Below are positions 19,961 to 63,395 of a stretch of 64,000 bases of DNA, piece by piece. This DNA is from Symploca sp. SIO2E9 (GTDB lineage Bacteria; Cyanobacteriota; Cyanobacteriia; Cyanobacteriales; Coleofasciculaceae). The stretch lies in the NCBI GenBank assembly GCA_010692645.1, contig JAAHGS010000002.1:1-64000 (forward strand), given 5' to 3'. The position numbers and the translations under genes are program-made. Positions within the stretch are counted from its first letter, which is position 1; each line of letters begins with the position of its first letter. Under the pieces are notes generated by a model. The model saw nothing but the letters and a program-made list of their open reading frames with translations. It was not told the DNA's origin and ran no database searches.

Positions 19961-20158
19961 TATAGCAGTCGCCACAGCTGTTAGGACACTTCCCTGTTCC
20001 CTGTTCCCTGTTCCCTGTTCCCTGTTCCCTGTTCCCTGTTCCCTACTCCCTATTCCCTGTTCCCTGTTCCCTGTTCCCTGTTCCCTGTTCCCTGTTCCCT
20101 GTTCCCTGTTCCCTTTGAATCAAAATACGATGTCCTAACCGACATGTCCGTTGCTATA
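19961..20158. repeat. TATAGCA/TTAGGACA inverted-repeat element filled with TTCCCTG heptamers
   Basis: Left arm 19961-19988 runs TATAGCA...TTAGGACA; right arm 20131-20158 is its imperfect reverse complement (28 nt, about 21 matches). Between them about 18 tandem copies of TTCCCTG (19990-20115, with TACTCCC and TATTCCC variants). The right arm overlaps the lpxB stop codon. Shorter members of the same family lie at 32551, 48975 and 51689, and a one-arm version at 54815-54840. Confidence 0.75.
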
Positions 20159-21482
20159 TTTTAGCTATTTGCAGAATTTCCCTCGCCGCGCGGTCGCAAA
20201 CTCCTACTTCCCCCAACAAACTGCGCATTTCCTGATAATCTGCCAGGGTTTGTTGACGCCTTTGAGGGTTGAGAAGCAGCTCTAAAGCTTCCTGAACAAT
20301 ATTTTCCGGTGTCGCTTGTTCTTGTAAAAACTCCGGTACAATCGAGCGCATTACTACTAAATTGGGAGGCGACATAAAGGGAATAGAAAAGTTCAAGAAA
20401 GTGCGAGCCAACCAGGCAGTAACAGGACTAACTCGGTAGAAAACTACCTGCGGAACATCTAACAACGCTAGTTCTAAGTTAACAGTACCAGACTTAGTAA
20501 TTGCCAAATCAACAGCTGCCAAGACTTCAGTAGTTTGCTCAGAGACAAGGGTAGCACGCAAACCATAAGACTCTATTGCTGCTTCAATAGGACGTCGATA
20601 GGCTTCTAGAGCAAGAGGAATCCAAAATAGCAGTGAATCCTGTGAAAGTTTGAGATTTTGAGACAATGAGCTAGATAAATTCTCCCCATCTCCCCCTCTC
20701 CCCATCCCCCCCTCTCTTCCTGCTCCCCCTCTCCCCATCCCCCCCTCTCTTCCTGCTCCCCCTCTCCCCATCCCCCCCTCTCTTCCTACTCCCTCCAATA
20801 ATTGCGACTGAATCCGCTTAGCTGCCTCACAGATTACAGGTAGCATATACTTTAATTCTTGCCTTCGAGAAGCTGGAACCAGTGCGATCGCAATTTGTTC
20901 CGGTTCAATTCCTAGGGCAGCCCGTGCCTGTTGGCGACTGGGACTCGATTGCATTCTATCAACAAGAGGATGACCAACCCAAGTTACAGATGTTCCTTTG
21001 TTTTGAAAATAGCGGGCTTCTTCTGGAAAAATTGCCAGCATCTTGTCTGTCATCTTCACTAATTTAGCTGTGTTGCGACTAGAAACTGACCAAACCCAAT
21101 CCTGGGGCGCAATATAGTAAACTATCGGTACTTGCGGTAAGCGAGAGCGGATCAGATTGCCTATTACCAGGTTTGGTCCAAAGTAGTCAATCAACACTGC
21201 TATCTCAGGTGGATGTTGCTGGAGGTACTGTCGAGCTCGACGTTGTATTTGTAGGGTAGGTAAGACAAAGGGTAGAGATTCCAGAAGCCCCACGGAACCA
21301 ATGCCTGTGGTATTAACTAACAACTTGGCACCGGCTGCTGCCATTTTCTCGCCCCCTAGTGCCACAATCTCTAACTCTAAGCCTGTAATTTGAGCATGGC
21401 GTTTGAGGGCTTCAATCAGCATTGCCCCTTGTAAGTCTCCGGATACTTCTCCTGTACTGATAAAAATTCTTTTAAGAGACAT
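20154..21482 (-). CDS. lpxB: Lipid-A-disaccharide synthase, with an in-frame repeat insertion
   Basis: 442 residues against about 385 usual. It joins UDP-2,3-diacylglucosamine and lipid X to form the lipid A disaccharide on the inner face of the membrane. Motifs: FISTGEVSGDLQGA at the N-terminus, VLIDYFGPN, YYIAPQDWVWS, WVGHPLVDR, and the late SGTVNLELALLDVPQVVFYR. Residues about 225-282 are an insertion not expected in the family: GREGGMGRGGA three times, then a Ser/Leu-rich tail, all in frame. The insertion falls between the two Rossmann-like halves. Stop codon TAG lies inside a repeat element. Usually next to lpxA; here 4.5 kb away. Confidence 0.9.
   Translation of the reverse strand: MSLKRIFISTGEVSGDLQGAMLIEALKRHAQITGLELEIVALGGEKMAAAGAKLLVNTTGIGSVGLLESLPFVLPTLQIQRRARQYLQQHPPEIAVLIDYFGPNLVIGNLIRSRLPQVPIVYYIAPQDWVWSVSSRNTAKLVKMTDKMLAIFPEEARYFQNKGTSVTWVGHPLVDRMQSSPSRQQARAALGIEPEQIAIALVPASRRQELKYMLPVICEAAKRIQSQLLEGVGREGGMGRGGAGREGGMGRGGAGREGGMGRGGDGENLSSSLSQNLKLSQDSLLFWIPLALEAYRRPIEAAIESYGLRATLVSEQTTEVLAAVDLAITKSGTVNLELALLDVPQVVFYRVSPVTAWLARTFLNFSIPFMSPPNLVVMRSIVPEFLQEQATPENIVQEALELLLNPQRRQQTLADYQEMRSLLGEVGVCDRAAREILQIAKI
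20680..20797. repeat. 33-bp tandem repeat inside lpxB
   Basis: Plus-strand unit of 33 bp, C/T-rich (CTCCCCCTCTCCCCATCC followed by CCCCTCTCTTCCTG), present about three times with almost no divergence. Because 33 is a multiple of three, copy-number change keeps the reading frame. Confidence 0.85.
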
Positions 21483-41631: not shown

Positions 41632-44600
41632 CTAGGGAATTGTCAGGTCAACCTTGAAGGTTACATCGTTAAAGTCATTGTCACCGCCACCGAACAAATC
41701 TTCAACACCAAAAGTATTGTCCCCAAGCATAGCAAAGTGATCGACTTGATCAGGGTTGGCATCCTCGAAAGCAAAGTAGGCATTAGAACCTTCATCCTCT
41801 AAATTCTCTGGATTAGTTTTGAGAAAATCGCTGATGCTGCCATTGACAATGACGAATGGTGCTAAAATCTCCCCTCCTTGCAGCTGAGTGACTATATTGG
41901 CAGTGCCTTGGTTTTCCACAGAGAGTTCAACTTCTATACTCTGCCGGATAGCAATTTCTGCATAACCTTGAGCTTCAGGGTTAACTAGTTGACCAGTTAA
42001 TTCATCAAGGATTGTACCTTGCTCATTTTGAACCACATAAAAGCTAATCCTATTGTTAAACTCAGCCTCCCGGTTCACTGTAAAGCTAGCAGAAACCTCC
42101 CCCTCAAAAGAACGTAAATCTAGCAATTCTCCTTGACTGATTATTTGAAGTTCTGCCCCCGGTGTCGGGCTTGTGCCTACCGACTCAAGGTTTATTACAA
42201 CATCGTCGAAGGAAGCATCACCCCCATCTGGCTGCTCCTCCCAATTGAGGGTAAAACTAGTACTGGTAGAATTAGAAACCTGTAGATTGGTTGAAGTGGA
42301 GAAGATCACATTATCAGGCGTCTCTCCAGCAGCCACTTGGCTGAGTACTTGGTCTGTAGTACCTTGTGAGACTAAGTAAAATCCTAGGCGATCGCTAGAT
42401 GTAAACTCTAAGAGGCGAGAATTTTGTGCAAAACCATTGGGAGGGTTAGATAGGACTGAACTAATGATTTGCGCCCGACTTAGGGCAGCTTGCAAATAGC
42501 CAGGTTCGCCAGGGGCAATTCCGTCGATAGTGCCTTGGTCATCATCAACCAAAAATACCCCCATTTCACTGTTAAAACTAGGGCTACTATTGATATCAAC
42601 ACTAAATTTGAGTTTGACTGAGGAACTGATTTCCTCAAATGCAAAAATACCAGCAGTGTCTACATTTCGGAACTCAGCAATTAAGTTTTCTCCGATAGTA
42701 AAATTAAAACTCCTGCTGGTAATTAGTTCACCGTTAGCTGTGACGTCGAAACCGAAACTATCGCTACTGGCGTCGCTGTCGCCATCGGCATAAGTCAGCA
42801 AACCATTGTTAATGTCGGCTTGGGTGAAAGTAGAATTAATTTCTACAGCAACACCATTGAGAAAGAGAATACCTTCATCAGGTAAATCAGTCAGGGTGTA
42901 GATAATTTGTTCTGCAGAAGTATCTCCACTACTAACCACAAGAAATTGGTTACTGATTACTTCGGTTTCCCCTTCATCGAGATTGATAGCAATAGTTTGA
43001 ATTTGCTTGTTGGCGGTGATGGTACCTGCCCCTTCAATGGTGCCACCAGTTACCTCGAAGAACTCGACATTAATGTTCTCATTGACGGTGAGAGTTCCCC
43101 CCACCAAGCGAACAGAACCTGCTCCAGTGAAAGTTGTTCCTGTGTCCAGGATGTGAGTTCCCTCAGCAAACTCAACTGTAGCGTCTTCATCAAGGTCAAA
43201 AGAGCCACTAATTTCACTATCGCCCTCCAGTTTAAGCTTGTTTTTGACTTTGACTTTACTTTGACTTTTGAACTTACTCTTAATCGTGACTTCCTCATCA
43301 ATATTGAGTTCGCCGCTAACTAAGTCAACTGTACCCAAGCCCAGGAAATCACTACCAGCAGCAAAAGTATGTGTCAGACCAATTAACTCTAAGCTAGCCT
43401 CTTCATCAAGGTCAAAGGAACCACTAATTTCACTATCGCCCTCCAGCTTAAGCTTGTTTTTGACTTTGACTTTACTTTGACTTTTGAACTTACTCTTAAT
43501 ACTGACTTCCTCATCAATATTGAGTTCGCCGCTAACTAAGTCAACTGTACCCAAGCCCAGGAAATCACTACCAGCAGCAAAAGTATGTGTCAGACCAATT
43601 AACTCTAAGCTAGCCTCTTCATCAAGGTCAAAGGAACCACTAATTTCACTATCGCCCTCCAGCTTAAGCTTGTTTTTGACTTTGACTTTACTTTGACTTT
43701 TGAACTTACTCTTAATACTGACTTCCTCATCAATATTGAGTTCGCCGCTAACTAAGTCAACTGTACCCAAGCCCAGGAAATCACTACCAGCAGCAAAAGT
43801 ATGTGTCAGACCAATTAACTCTAAGCTAGCCTCTTCATCAAGGTCAAAAGAGCCACTAATTTCACTATCGCCCTCCAGTTTAAGCTTGTTTTTGACTTTG
43901 ACGTTGCTCTGACTTTTGAACTTACTCTTAATACTGACTTCCTCATCAATATTGAGTTCGCCGCTAACTAAGTCAACTGTACCCAAGCCCAGGAAATCAC
44001 TATCAGCAGCAAAAGTATGTGTCAGACCAATTAACTCTAAGCTAGCCTCTTCATCAAGGTCAAAAGAACCACTAATTTCACTATCGCCCTCCAGTTTAAG
44101 CTTGTTTTTGACTTTGACGTTGCTCTGACTTTTGAACTTACTCTTAATACTGACTTCCTCATCAATATTGAGTTCGCCGCTAACTAGGTCAACTGTACCC
44201 AAGCCCAGGAAATCACTACCAGCAGCAAAAGTATGTGTCAGACCAATTAACTCTAAACTAGCGTCTTCATCAAGGTCAAAAGAGCCACGGATTTCACTAT
44301 CACCAGTCAGATTTAACTTCTTGCCAGTTTTAATCTTGACTTCGCTCTTATTAATAAATTTGGTGTTAATAGTAAGGTCTTCATCGACATTAAAAATGCC
44401 GCTTTCCAGTTCAATTAAGCCTAATCCTTGAAAGCTGGTACCGCTGCCGAAAGCTTGGGTTTGACCACTAAACTTTACGCTGGAATTTTCTTCAATAGTA
44501 AAATTACCACTCCAGGTTGTGTTTCCCGTGCCAGTAAGTGTACCTGCGGTGAGATTCAAGGAAACCACTGTGATATCTACATCTGTGGTGACATTGACAT

Positions 44601-60779: not shown

Positions 60780-63395
60780 ATGAACCTAATACTCCCTAAT
60801 TACCATCAATTGTTCGTACCAAATCGACCATTATGGGTTAACTTGCCTGCGACTGGATTAGTAGCCATTTTCTGTGCGCTAGGAGTCAGTAGCATTCAAC
60901 CCGCTCAGGCAACTCTCTCTCAACAGGAGACGACGCCTTTAGAGCCAACCCAAACAGATCAGCAAATTAATTTTGCTCTAATCCCTACTCAAGAGCTCGA
61001 AGCCCTTGCACCAGCATCTTCGATAGGGACAAAGTATAGTGAGCTTCTGCACCCACAGGATTTGCGCGGGTGTAGTCAGGCACAGCTTGCTTGTGCAGAA
61101 TTATTTGTCTCATCTTCCATCGATTTTTTTGCGCACCAAGCACTAGCTCCGCAAAGTTCAGGAGAGAACAAGGCTGTAAAGTCCCCTCAACTGACGATCT
61201 TGCAACCATCTTGGTTCCAGCTTAGTTCTAGCGCCAACAGTCCGATACGAGAAGCTCAATTGAGTACTACTGCTGAAGTAACTTCAGAAGTTAGTGGAAT
61301 AAGAGCTTTACCAGCATTTGCAGCTACTGAAGGTAATTCTTCTCTGAATTTGGAAGCATTAACATTAGGTAGCGAAGTTGGATGTCCTAACGAAAACATT
61401 TGTAATCAAAGGACTCTCAAAGCATCGTCATTGGAGTTTCCCAATAACTCCAACCAAACTTTGGCACAGCTGCCTCAATTACCACAACCAACTCAAGCCT
61501 CAGGACAACCCCCTTTAACAGGTGTGCTTTCCAATGGCGAGGTTTCCTCACCTTGGGTTGCACCTCAATTTCTACAAGTGCAGAATTCGGTGCCGATGCC
61601 AGCTGCGCCAATACCGATGGGGGCTAATGGCTATAACCAAGGTTTAGGGCAGTATCCTAACTACCCCCAAACTGTTTTACTGATGCCGATGGGGGCTAAT
61701 GGCTATAACCAAGGTTTAGGGCAATATCCTAACTACCCCCAAACTGTTTTACTGATGCCGATGGGGGCTAATGGCTACAACCAAGGCTTGGGGCAATATC
61801 CTAACTACCCCCAAACTGTTTTACTGATGCCGATGGGGGCTAATGGTAATAACCAAAGCTGGGTTCAGTATCCTAACTACCCACAAAACCAGGCTCCACT
61901 GCCTATCACTCCTAACCAGATAGGTAATAACCAAGGCTGGGTTCAGTATCCTAACTACCCGCAAAATCAGGCTCCACTGCCACCTCCACTCACTCCTAAT
62001 CAGGTAGGTAATAACCAAGGCTGGGTTCAGTATCCTAACTACCCGCAAAATCAGGCTCCACTGCCTATTACTCCTAATCAGGTAGGTAATAACCAAGGCT
62101 GGGTTCAGTATCCTAACTACCCTCAAAATCAGGCTCCACTGCCTATTACTCCTAACCAGGTAGGTAATAACCAAGGCTGGGTTCAGTATCCTAACTACCC
62201 TCAAAATCAGGCTCCACTGCCTATCACTCCTAACCAGGTAGGTAATAACCAAGGCTGGGTTCAGTATCCTAACTACCCGCAAAATCAGGCTCCACTGCCT
62301 ATCACTCCTAACCCCAATCTCACCCAGCAATTTTCCACTCCCACCACAGATTTAGGACAGATAGCACCAACTCAAGTACCACCTGAAATTACTAGTAAAC
62401 CCATAAATTCGCCCTCCTTACAGTTCCAGGGCTCTTATATAACTCAAGGTGAAGACTCCGTAGCACGGGCACGTCTATCTGGAATCTATCCGCTGACTTC
62501 CCAAATACTGTTTGGTGCCACCTTTGATTTGACTAGCGAGGACAACGAATTAGCTGACTCCCCAGAAGATGGCTTGAACATCAACGAGCTTTATGTGGCG
62601 GCTTCCCCTTTTAAGGATTTACCCAATTTGCGCTTAGTGGTTGGTCAATTAGATTTAACCTCCTACTTTGATCGCAATAGCTTTGCTAAAGATGGTGTTA
62701 GCCATTTCTTTAACTCAGTTTTTCAGACTAATCCTGCCTTGAGTGCAACTGGGATTGCTTCTCGCCCTGGAGCTTTAGTTAACTGGAGTGTGACAGATAA
62801 CATTGAAGCCAAAGCAGCTGTGTTCTCATCGGATCGTGCCCTTGATGACTTTGCTCTTGATGGCTTTGCTGGGGAAATCGGTATCCGTTTCGGCAATGCT
62901 ATTGTTCGCGGCACTTATGCCACGGCCAGAGATGCTGGCTCCGAAACTGGCTTTCAAGAAATTTTCTCACTCCCTCGCGGTGATGATGACTTTGGACTAG
63001 AGCCAGAAGATCGTGAAGAATCCTACGGTATCAATGCTGAAGTCTTTATTCCCAATCTCAATATGGGATTATTTGCTCGCTATGGTCGTTATGAAAACCG
63101 TGAGTTAGACCGGGCAGGAGATACTTACAGTTTAGGACTCACGTTCTTGGATGTATTTGCCAAAGATGACCGTCTAGGATTAGCTTATGGGCGTGGTTTA
63201 TCCAATGAGAGGCTGCGCCAAGACAATGATGATGATCTACCAGATGTATTAGAACTCTTCTACGATTTCCGATTTCTGCGCAATCTGCGACTCGGTTTTA
63301 CACTTCAGCAGCGGGATAACTTCTCTGATACCTTTGCCGGTTTTCGCATCAAAACAGAGTTTGATGTAATTCCTAGAAGGAGATTGAGTCAATGA
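60780..63395 (+). CDS. Outer-membrane porin-like protein with Asn/Gln/Tyr/Pro repeats
   Basis: About 871 residues (884 if GTG 60741 is used). Signal region PLWVNLPATGLVAIFCALGV, SSIQPAQA. A variable Ser/Thr/Pro region runs to about 270. The tandem-repeat region covers about 278-515: 24-residue units (MGANGYNQGLGQYPNYPQTV...), then 26-residue units (NNQGWVQYPNYPQNQAPLPI...). The C-terminal 350 residues look like an outer-membrane beta-barrel of the carbohydrate-porin kind (LQFQGSYITQGEDSVARARL, LNINELYVAASPFKDLPNLR). It is translationally coupled to the TPR gene. Exact substrate unknown. Confidence 0.75.
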   Translation: MNLILPNYHQLFVPNRPLWVNLPATGLVAIFCALGVSSIQPAQATLSQQETTPLEPTQTDQQINFALIPTQELEALAPASSIGTKYSELLHPQDLRGCSQAQLACAELFVSSSIDFFAHQALAPQSSGENKAVKSPQLTILQPSWFQLSSSANSPIREAQLSTTAEVTSEVSGIRALPAFAATEGNSSLNLEALTLGSEVGCPNENICNQRTLKASSLEFPNNSNQTLAQLPQLPQPTQASGQPPLTGVLSNGEVSSPWVAPQFLQVQNSVPMPAAPIPMGANGYNQGLGQYPNYPQTVLLMPMGANGYNQGLGQYPNYPQTVLLMPMGANGYNQGLGQYPNYPQTVLLMPMGANGNNQSWVQYPNYPQNQAPLPITPNQIGNNQGWVQYPNYPQNQAPLPPPLTPNQVGNNQGWVQYPNYPQNQAPLPITPNQVGNNQGWVQYPNYPQNQAPLPITPNQVGNNQGWVQYPNYPQNQAPLPITPNQVGNNQGWVQYPNYPQNQAPLPITPNPNLTQQFSTPTTDLGQIAPTQVPPEITSKPINSPSLQFQGSYITQGEDSVARARLSGIYPLTSQILFGATFDLTSEDNELADSPEDGLNINELYVAASPFKDLPNLRLVVGQLDLTSYFDRNSFAKDGVSHFFNSVFQTNPALSATGIASRPGALVNWSVTDNIEAKAAVFSSDRALDDFALDGFAGEIGIRFGNAIVRGTYATARDAGSETGFQEIFSLPRGDDDFGLEPEDREESYGINAEVFIPNLNMGLFARYGRYENRELDRAGDTYSLGLTFLDVFAKDDRLGLAYGRGLSNERLRQDNDDDLPDVLELFYDFRFLRNLRLGFTLQQRDNFSDTFAGFRIKTEFDVIPRRRLSQ
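61614..62320. repeat. Two-class coding tandem repeat in the porin gene
   Basis: Four 72-bp units start at 61614, 61686, 61758 and 61830 (the last a hybrid), then about six 78-bp units (one 6 bp longer, PPPLT). All are multiples of three. The two classes share the QYPNYPQ core, so one grew out of the other. Confidence 0.92.

Follow-up and report, generated by a model that had tools for sequence, protein, structure and literature searches.

In the stretch of 64,000 nucleotides from Symploca sp. SIO2E9 that was analysed here (the window), the lipid-A-disaccharide synthase gene lpxB carried an in-frame array of tandem repeats, and the origin that we consider quite probable is that a dispersed G-rich tandem repeat entered and was amplified in an already permissive surface loop of LpxB, where frame-keeping lengths alone survived and the product is tolerated as a disordered linker. 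By this account, core enzymes (LpxB, UvrC, MutS2 and Mg-chelatase H) would absorb genome-wide repeat DNA as disordered loops, and homologous positions would be hit repeatedly in both cases compared across the family, LpxB and UvrC. The features of the window on which the analysis was based are as follows.

20154..21482, minus strand: lpxB, lipid-A-disaccharide synthase, 442 aa (open reading frame; TIGR00215 above cutoff; PF02684)
20628..20798, minus strand: expanded loop, residues 229-285, 53 residues over LpxB outside the family (alignments; pLDDT <50 at 232-278)
20690..20793, minus strand: 33-bp tandem array, 3.2 copies, each unit four octamer-like blocks and one base (TRF; periodicity)
20628..20689, minus strand: non-repetitive Ser/Leu tail of the insertion, common to the nearest relative and present once per genome (sequence search)
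19990..20114, no strand assigned: separate heptamer array TTCCCTG, 17.9 copies (TRF)

The lpxB array was detected by TRF with a period of 33, 3.2 copies and 98% matches, and its 33-mer occurred 3 times in the window at up to 3 mismatches, compared to 0 occurrences in 100 shuffles. It was placed, as the earlier note had described, in frame inside the 442-aa minus-strand ORF, which scored 348 bits against the cutoff of 190 for the lpxB equivalog TIGR00215. The translation was GREGGMGRGGA twice, then GREGGMGRGGD, then the Ser/Leu tail. From the end of the helix to the FWIP motif, 57 residues (229-285) were counted in the window LpxB and 4 in uninserted cyanobacterial LpxB, and the 57 residues once taken as extra are the length of the loop, of which the excess is 53 (anchor spans of 111 vs 58). 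In the 5w8n alignment, residues D98, S200, R201 and N316 of E. coli LpxB, whose catalytic roles are given in PMC5785501, corresponded to D99, S205, R206 and N374. These positions were invariant in 52 LpxB sequences, which agreed with the claim that the catalytic motifs are intact.

The AlphaFold2 model of the window LpxB had a mean pLDDT of 84.8, and the sole stretch below 50 was residues 232-278, between helix 207-230 and strand 284-289; the loop is thereby predicted to be disordered. It was located within the C-terminal domain, between the first helix of that domain and the next strand, in the 5w8n alignment and the model alike, and not between the two halves of the enzyme as had been proposed. 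Three LpxB entries ranked first when the model was used for a PDB fold search, but their superposition was poor (rmsd ~20 Å) and the placement of the loop was taken from the AlphaFold2 topology.

When the peptide of the window insert was sought elsewhere in its own genome, it matched in lpxB alone, thus the 11-residue unit in its exact form is confined to lpxB and its kinship with other copies lies at the DNA level. Around the gene, the TTCCCTG heptamer array begins ~40 bp past the lpxB stop codon, and short tandem repeats flank lpxB in many cyanobacteria. Two further ORFs of the window contain large in-frame coding repeats, at 43179-44301 (unit of 216 bp, 5.2 copies) and 61614-62313 (units of 72 and 78 bp).

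LpxB was searched in 97 genomes of the order and matched in 95, with no match in G004 and G090; in the 20 genomes of the GTDB family (f1) it was found in 19. All 15 complete family rows carried an insertion of +11 to +54 residues (anchor-to-anchor span 69-112, window 111) and all were open frames, after four incomplete rows were left out of the count, namely G009, G012 and G016, in which the contig ends at the loop, and G005, which is broken by unknown bases and for which visual reading gave +4. None of the 75 rows from outside the family had an insert, with spans of 58 (72 rows), 59 (2) and 60 (1), the partial row G086 also being left out. The same distribution was obtained in the named genome collection, where the insert was missing from 67 of 67 non-family lpxB loci and complete in 11 of the 13 family loci, the other two being cut at the loop. 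By identity of the LpxB reading frames, G001, the nearest relative, corresponds to Symploca SIO3C6, G013 to SIO1C2 and G017 to SIO2E6. In the LpxB tree, the node of the family had weak support (83/86), and the deeper forks were weak as well. These alignments showed that the insertion site is old and common to the whole family, with fillings that differ by genus. The insertion site is therefore not the recent feature of one strain that had been supposed, and the outcome named as refuting in the earlier note, an identical insertion of equal length in all relatives, was not seen.

The loop of the window was filled by the G-rich array and the Ser/Leu tail; that of G001 is shorter by 22 residues (66 bp) and contains the same tail with a single unit-like stretch. 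The suggestion that the array may vary in length without loss of frame was borne out, as these two members of the genus differ by 66 bp, or two units, with the frame kept. The inserts of G011 and G016 consisted of GGAGACAAG 9-mer repeats (KGD), that of G003 (L141) of CCCAATT heptamers, that of G013 (L147) of octamers, CCCAATT and CAAACAA, and that of G017 of the 9-mer and CAAACAA, while in Symplocastrum torsivum (L146) GGGAATT was found, which is the CCCAATT heptamer in reverse orientation. Different fillings were on separate branches of the LpxB tree, though its deeper forks were weak. Since opposite heptamer orientations cannot stem from one inherited array, we infer that there was more than one acquisition at this loop; a single ancestral composite that was lost and grew again could account for some of this variety, but not for the inverted heptamer.

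The window array had 46 matches in its own genome. The LpxB insert of G013 matched 43 times in G013, 81 times in G017 and 17 times in G003, and the 9-mer insert matched 16, 49 and 51 times in G016, G011 and G017. The fillings are thus for the most part translations of genome-wide repeats. Not every filling is a dispersed repeat, because the Moorena insert occurred once per genome in four of four Moorena genomes and the tail of the window insert once in each of the 2 genomes searched. At 29 other loci with G- or C-rich arrays, the best period was 8 (15 loci), 16 (3), 24 (5), 32 (5) or 37 (1). The lpxB array matched itself by 90% at a shift of 33 bp and by 48% at 32 bp, so its unit is four octamers and one base, a whole number of codons. 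As 24 bp is also a multiple of 3 and was the period of 5 of the 29 dispersed copies, frame-keeping alone is no proof of selection. A search for a 3' tail common to the dispersed copies gave none for lpxB. Three octamer arrays of the window genome (L113, L120 and L128) resemble one another in their 3' flank, TTTCCT..A..GGT(C/T)GAAAG...., which may be a further dispersed element.

Based on 20 copies matching the G013 lpxB insert, which were read in the sister Symploca genomes G013 and G017, a composite structure was revealed. In 16 of the 20 copies, a stretch rich in G (12 or more G in 24) lay at most 70 bp before the CCCAATT array, compared to 3.9% of random 70-mers of the window genome (G000) and 9.4% of 160 flank pieces from the same 20 loci; the looser limit of 10 G in 24 was weak, as 18% of random 70-mers reached it, and 12 of 24 was used. 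The order G-rich stretch, CCCAATT, CAAACAA recurred among copies, and several copies stopped just before an ATG. The CCCAATT-CAAACAA copies at L249, L251, L252, L253 and L255 end within ~15 bp of a frame-opening ATG, which makes the repeat the 5' leader of these genes. A search of the 20 family genomes with the sense peptide, which detects sense copies alone, gave at least 155, 129 and 127 matches in G017, G013 and G002 and, among the matches listed, at most 2 in every other genome. By hand count, again among the matches listed, at least 32 places were in stop-free frames of at least 300 aa, although an open frame by itself does not establish a position of the element within a gene.

Known proteins with internal composite inserts were MutS2, UvrC (G013 and G017), CobN and the ChlH/BchH chelatase subunits, and further ones were a GH38 mannosidase with two copies, an NFACT protein, an RND transporter, histidine kinases and TPR-CHAT proteins. 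The clearest parallel was UvrC, in which the loop before the DLVMIDGGKG strand was 14 residues long in 5 genomes and ranged over 30-121 residues in the 9 others measured; UvrC of G010, G011 and G013 was missed by the measuring pattern and was seen in a separate inspection of the sequences. The uvrC genes of G004 and G016 were broken between contigs at that loop. At the same position, UvrC of the window genome carried the G-rich insert EGEGGRGGEGERGRGGE; lpxB is thus not special, the same kind of insert being present in another gene of one genome. In G017, the GH38 alpha-mannosidase at L262:491-4114 contains two composite elements in frame, and CobN of G002 (L278) contains at least 2.

It may further be, and here we regard the evidence as evenly balanced, that the marine filamentous cyanobacteria of this family host non-palindromic, peptide-coding composites of ordered tandem-repeat modules (in the Symploca genomes G-rich 8/9-mers, followed by CCCAATT and then CAAACAA), which move about as whole units and come to lie, in frame, in the helix-to-strand loops of core enzymes, with LpxB and UvrC as recurrent landing sites and the whole as a cyanobacterial counterpart of in-frame selfish DNA.

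Compared with G001, the LpxB core gave dN 0.035 and dS 0.251 (ratio 0.14, 382 codons), and the insert gave dN 0.152 and dS 0.167 (ratio ~0.9), the latter over 38 codons and with little power. Judged from the core dN/dS and the conserved catalytic residues, the enzyme looks functional, and the two ratios would fit an enzyme that is kept while its loop drifts. The alternative that a useful linker is selected, in which LpxB activity, contact with the membrane or partners would be tuned through the length or charge of the loop and repeats would be the easiest source of variation, appeared unlikely. Every complete family member retains some insertion, and the free variation in length is what a tunable linker would show; against this, charge and composition are wholly different among the fillings (GREGGMGRGGA, KGD, SQFPIPN, TTNNKQQ), the insert dN/dS is ~0.9 over those 38 codons, the same peptides occur in unrelated enzymes, and the membrane region of E. 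coli LpxB is, according to PMC5785501, loop 62-71 with helix 4 of the N-terminal domain. Most probably the peptide itself serves no function, and the loop would be neutral.

An assembly artefact, that is, an array put together wrongly or lengthened by reads that belong to other copies, was considered very improbable. The repeat does break assemblies: 23 of 30 fetched copies lay within ~160 bp of a contig end (one place was fetched twice), and lpxB was split at the loop in G012 and G016 and ended there in G009, so the copy number of the window array is uncertain and could be compressed or expanded. However, independent assemblies carried inserts at the same residue with frames kept, and G001 shared the tail and one unit, which confines the doubt to the exact copy number; the possibility of an assembly error raised by the earlier note thus holds for the number of units and not for the insert itself. 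Least probable of all was a contingency locus in which array length shifts the frame and switches LpxB on and off, since the 33-bp unit of the window and the 9-bp unit of G011 and G016 are frame-neutral and 15 of 15 complete family rows are open, although SSR switching is a known mechanism and some relatives have heptamer arrays there in which a change of one unit shifts the frame. Such a phase-variation SSR was rejected, as the 33-bp unit lies inside the ORF and shifts neither frame nor promoter spacing. Also rejected were an intein, as LpxB was the sole Pfam match at 1e-3, and a palindromic element, as no inverted repeat of at least 10 bp was found in the four inserts or copies tested.

Entry of a dispersed repeat into a permissive loop would proceed as follows. 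The LpxB surface loop would already have been permissive in the family ancestor, and a copy of a scattered short G-rich tandem repeat would have entered it and been amplified, probably by copying from a dispersed array through template switching or recombination and then by slippage. An octamer array would have gained one base to give the 33-bp, 11-codon unit, which would then expand and contract by whole units, and only events that are in frame, disorder-coding and sited in a loop would persist.

The unit of cyanobacterial STRRs is a heptanucleotide. Within cyanobacterial RNase P RNA, an STRR was reportedly found by Vioque in 1997, which would likewise be a repeat array at a tolerant position in an essential gene, but an RNA gene has no reading frame to keep. 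The window array resembled STRRs as a tandem repeat dispersed in the genome (46 matches, octamer periods) and differed in its unit, 33 bp and derived from an 8-mer, although heptamer units do occur at the LpxB loop in G003, G013 and L146. In PMC4692102, STRRs are short G-rich tandem repeats, dispersed, mostly intergenic and some intragenic, and its map has lpxB among the repeat-associated genes; the present insert is, compared with these, internal, in frame and at one homologous loop across the family. The Nostocaceae lpxB loci examined here had no insert at this loop. A likeness was also found to Rickettsia palindromic elements (RPE), which in PMC10969869 are dispersed short elements in frame in many unrelated genes, as was the element of G013, G017 and G002. 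RPE are palindromes of ~150 bp, and the present inserts are tandem-repeat modules with 0 inverted pairs of at least 10 bp in 4 regions (inserts or copies); as the palindrome was tested and absent, they are not RPE and would only act like them. Among the titles and abstract openings listed by literature searches, none described repeats inserted in frame into LpxB or UvrC of cyanobacteria, and three peptide strings gave no paper. How tandem-repeat families move and seed new segments of bacterial proteins is a long-standing question, which can now be tested in close strains.

Repeats inside and outside genes were also compared in a 464-kb sample (the window and 400 kb of G000). Outside long ORFs, the periods of the arrays were mostly 7, 8 or their multiples, and inside long ORFs mostly multiples of 3; a few heptamer or octamer arrays were nevertheless in ORFs, for instance in a STAND/WD40 protein, a protein O-mannosyltransferase and a ketoacyl synthase. 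At L229:8686-8717, a 3222-aa ORF contains an AATTTTG heptamer array that encodes NSKFKIQNSKL, just before YKTGDL, which looks like an NRPS adenylation motif.
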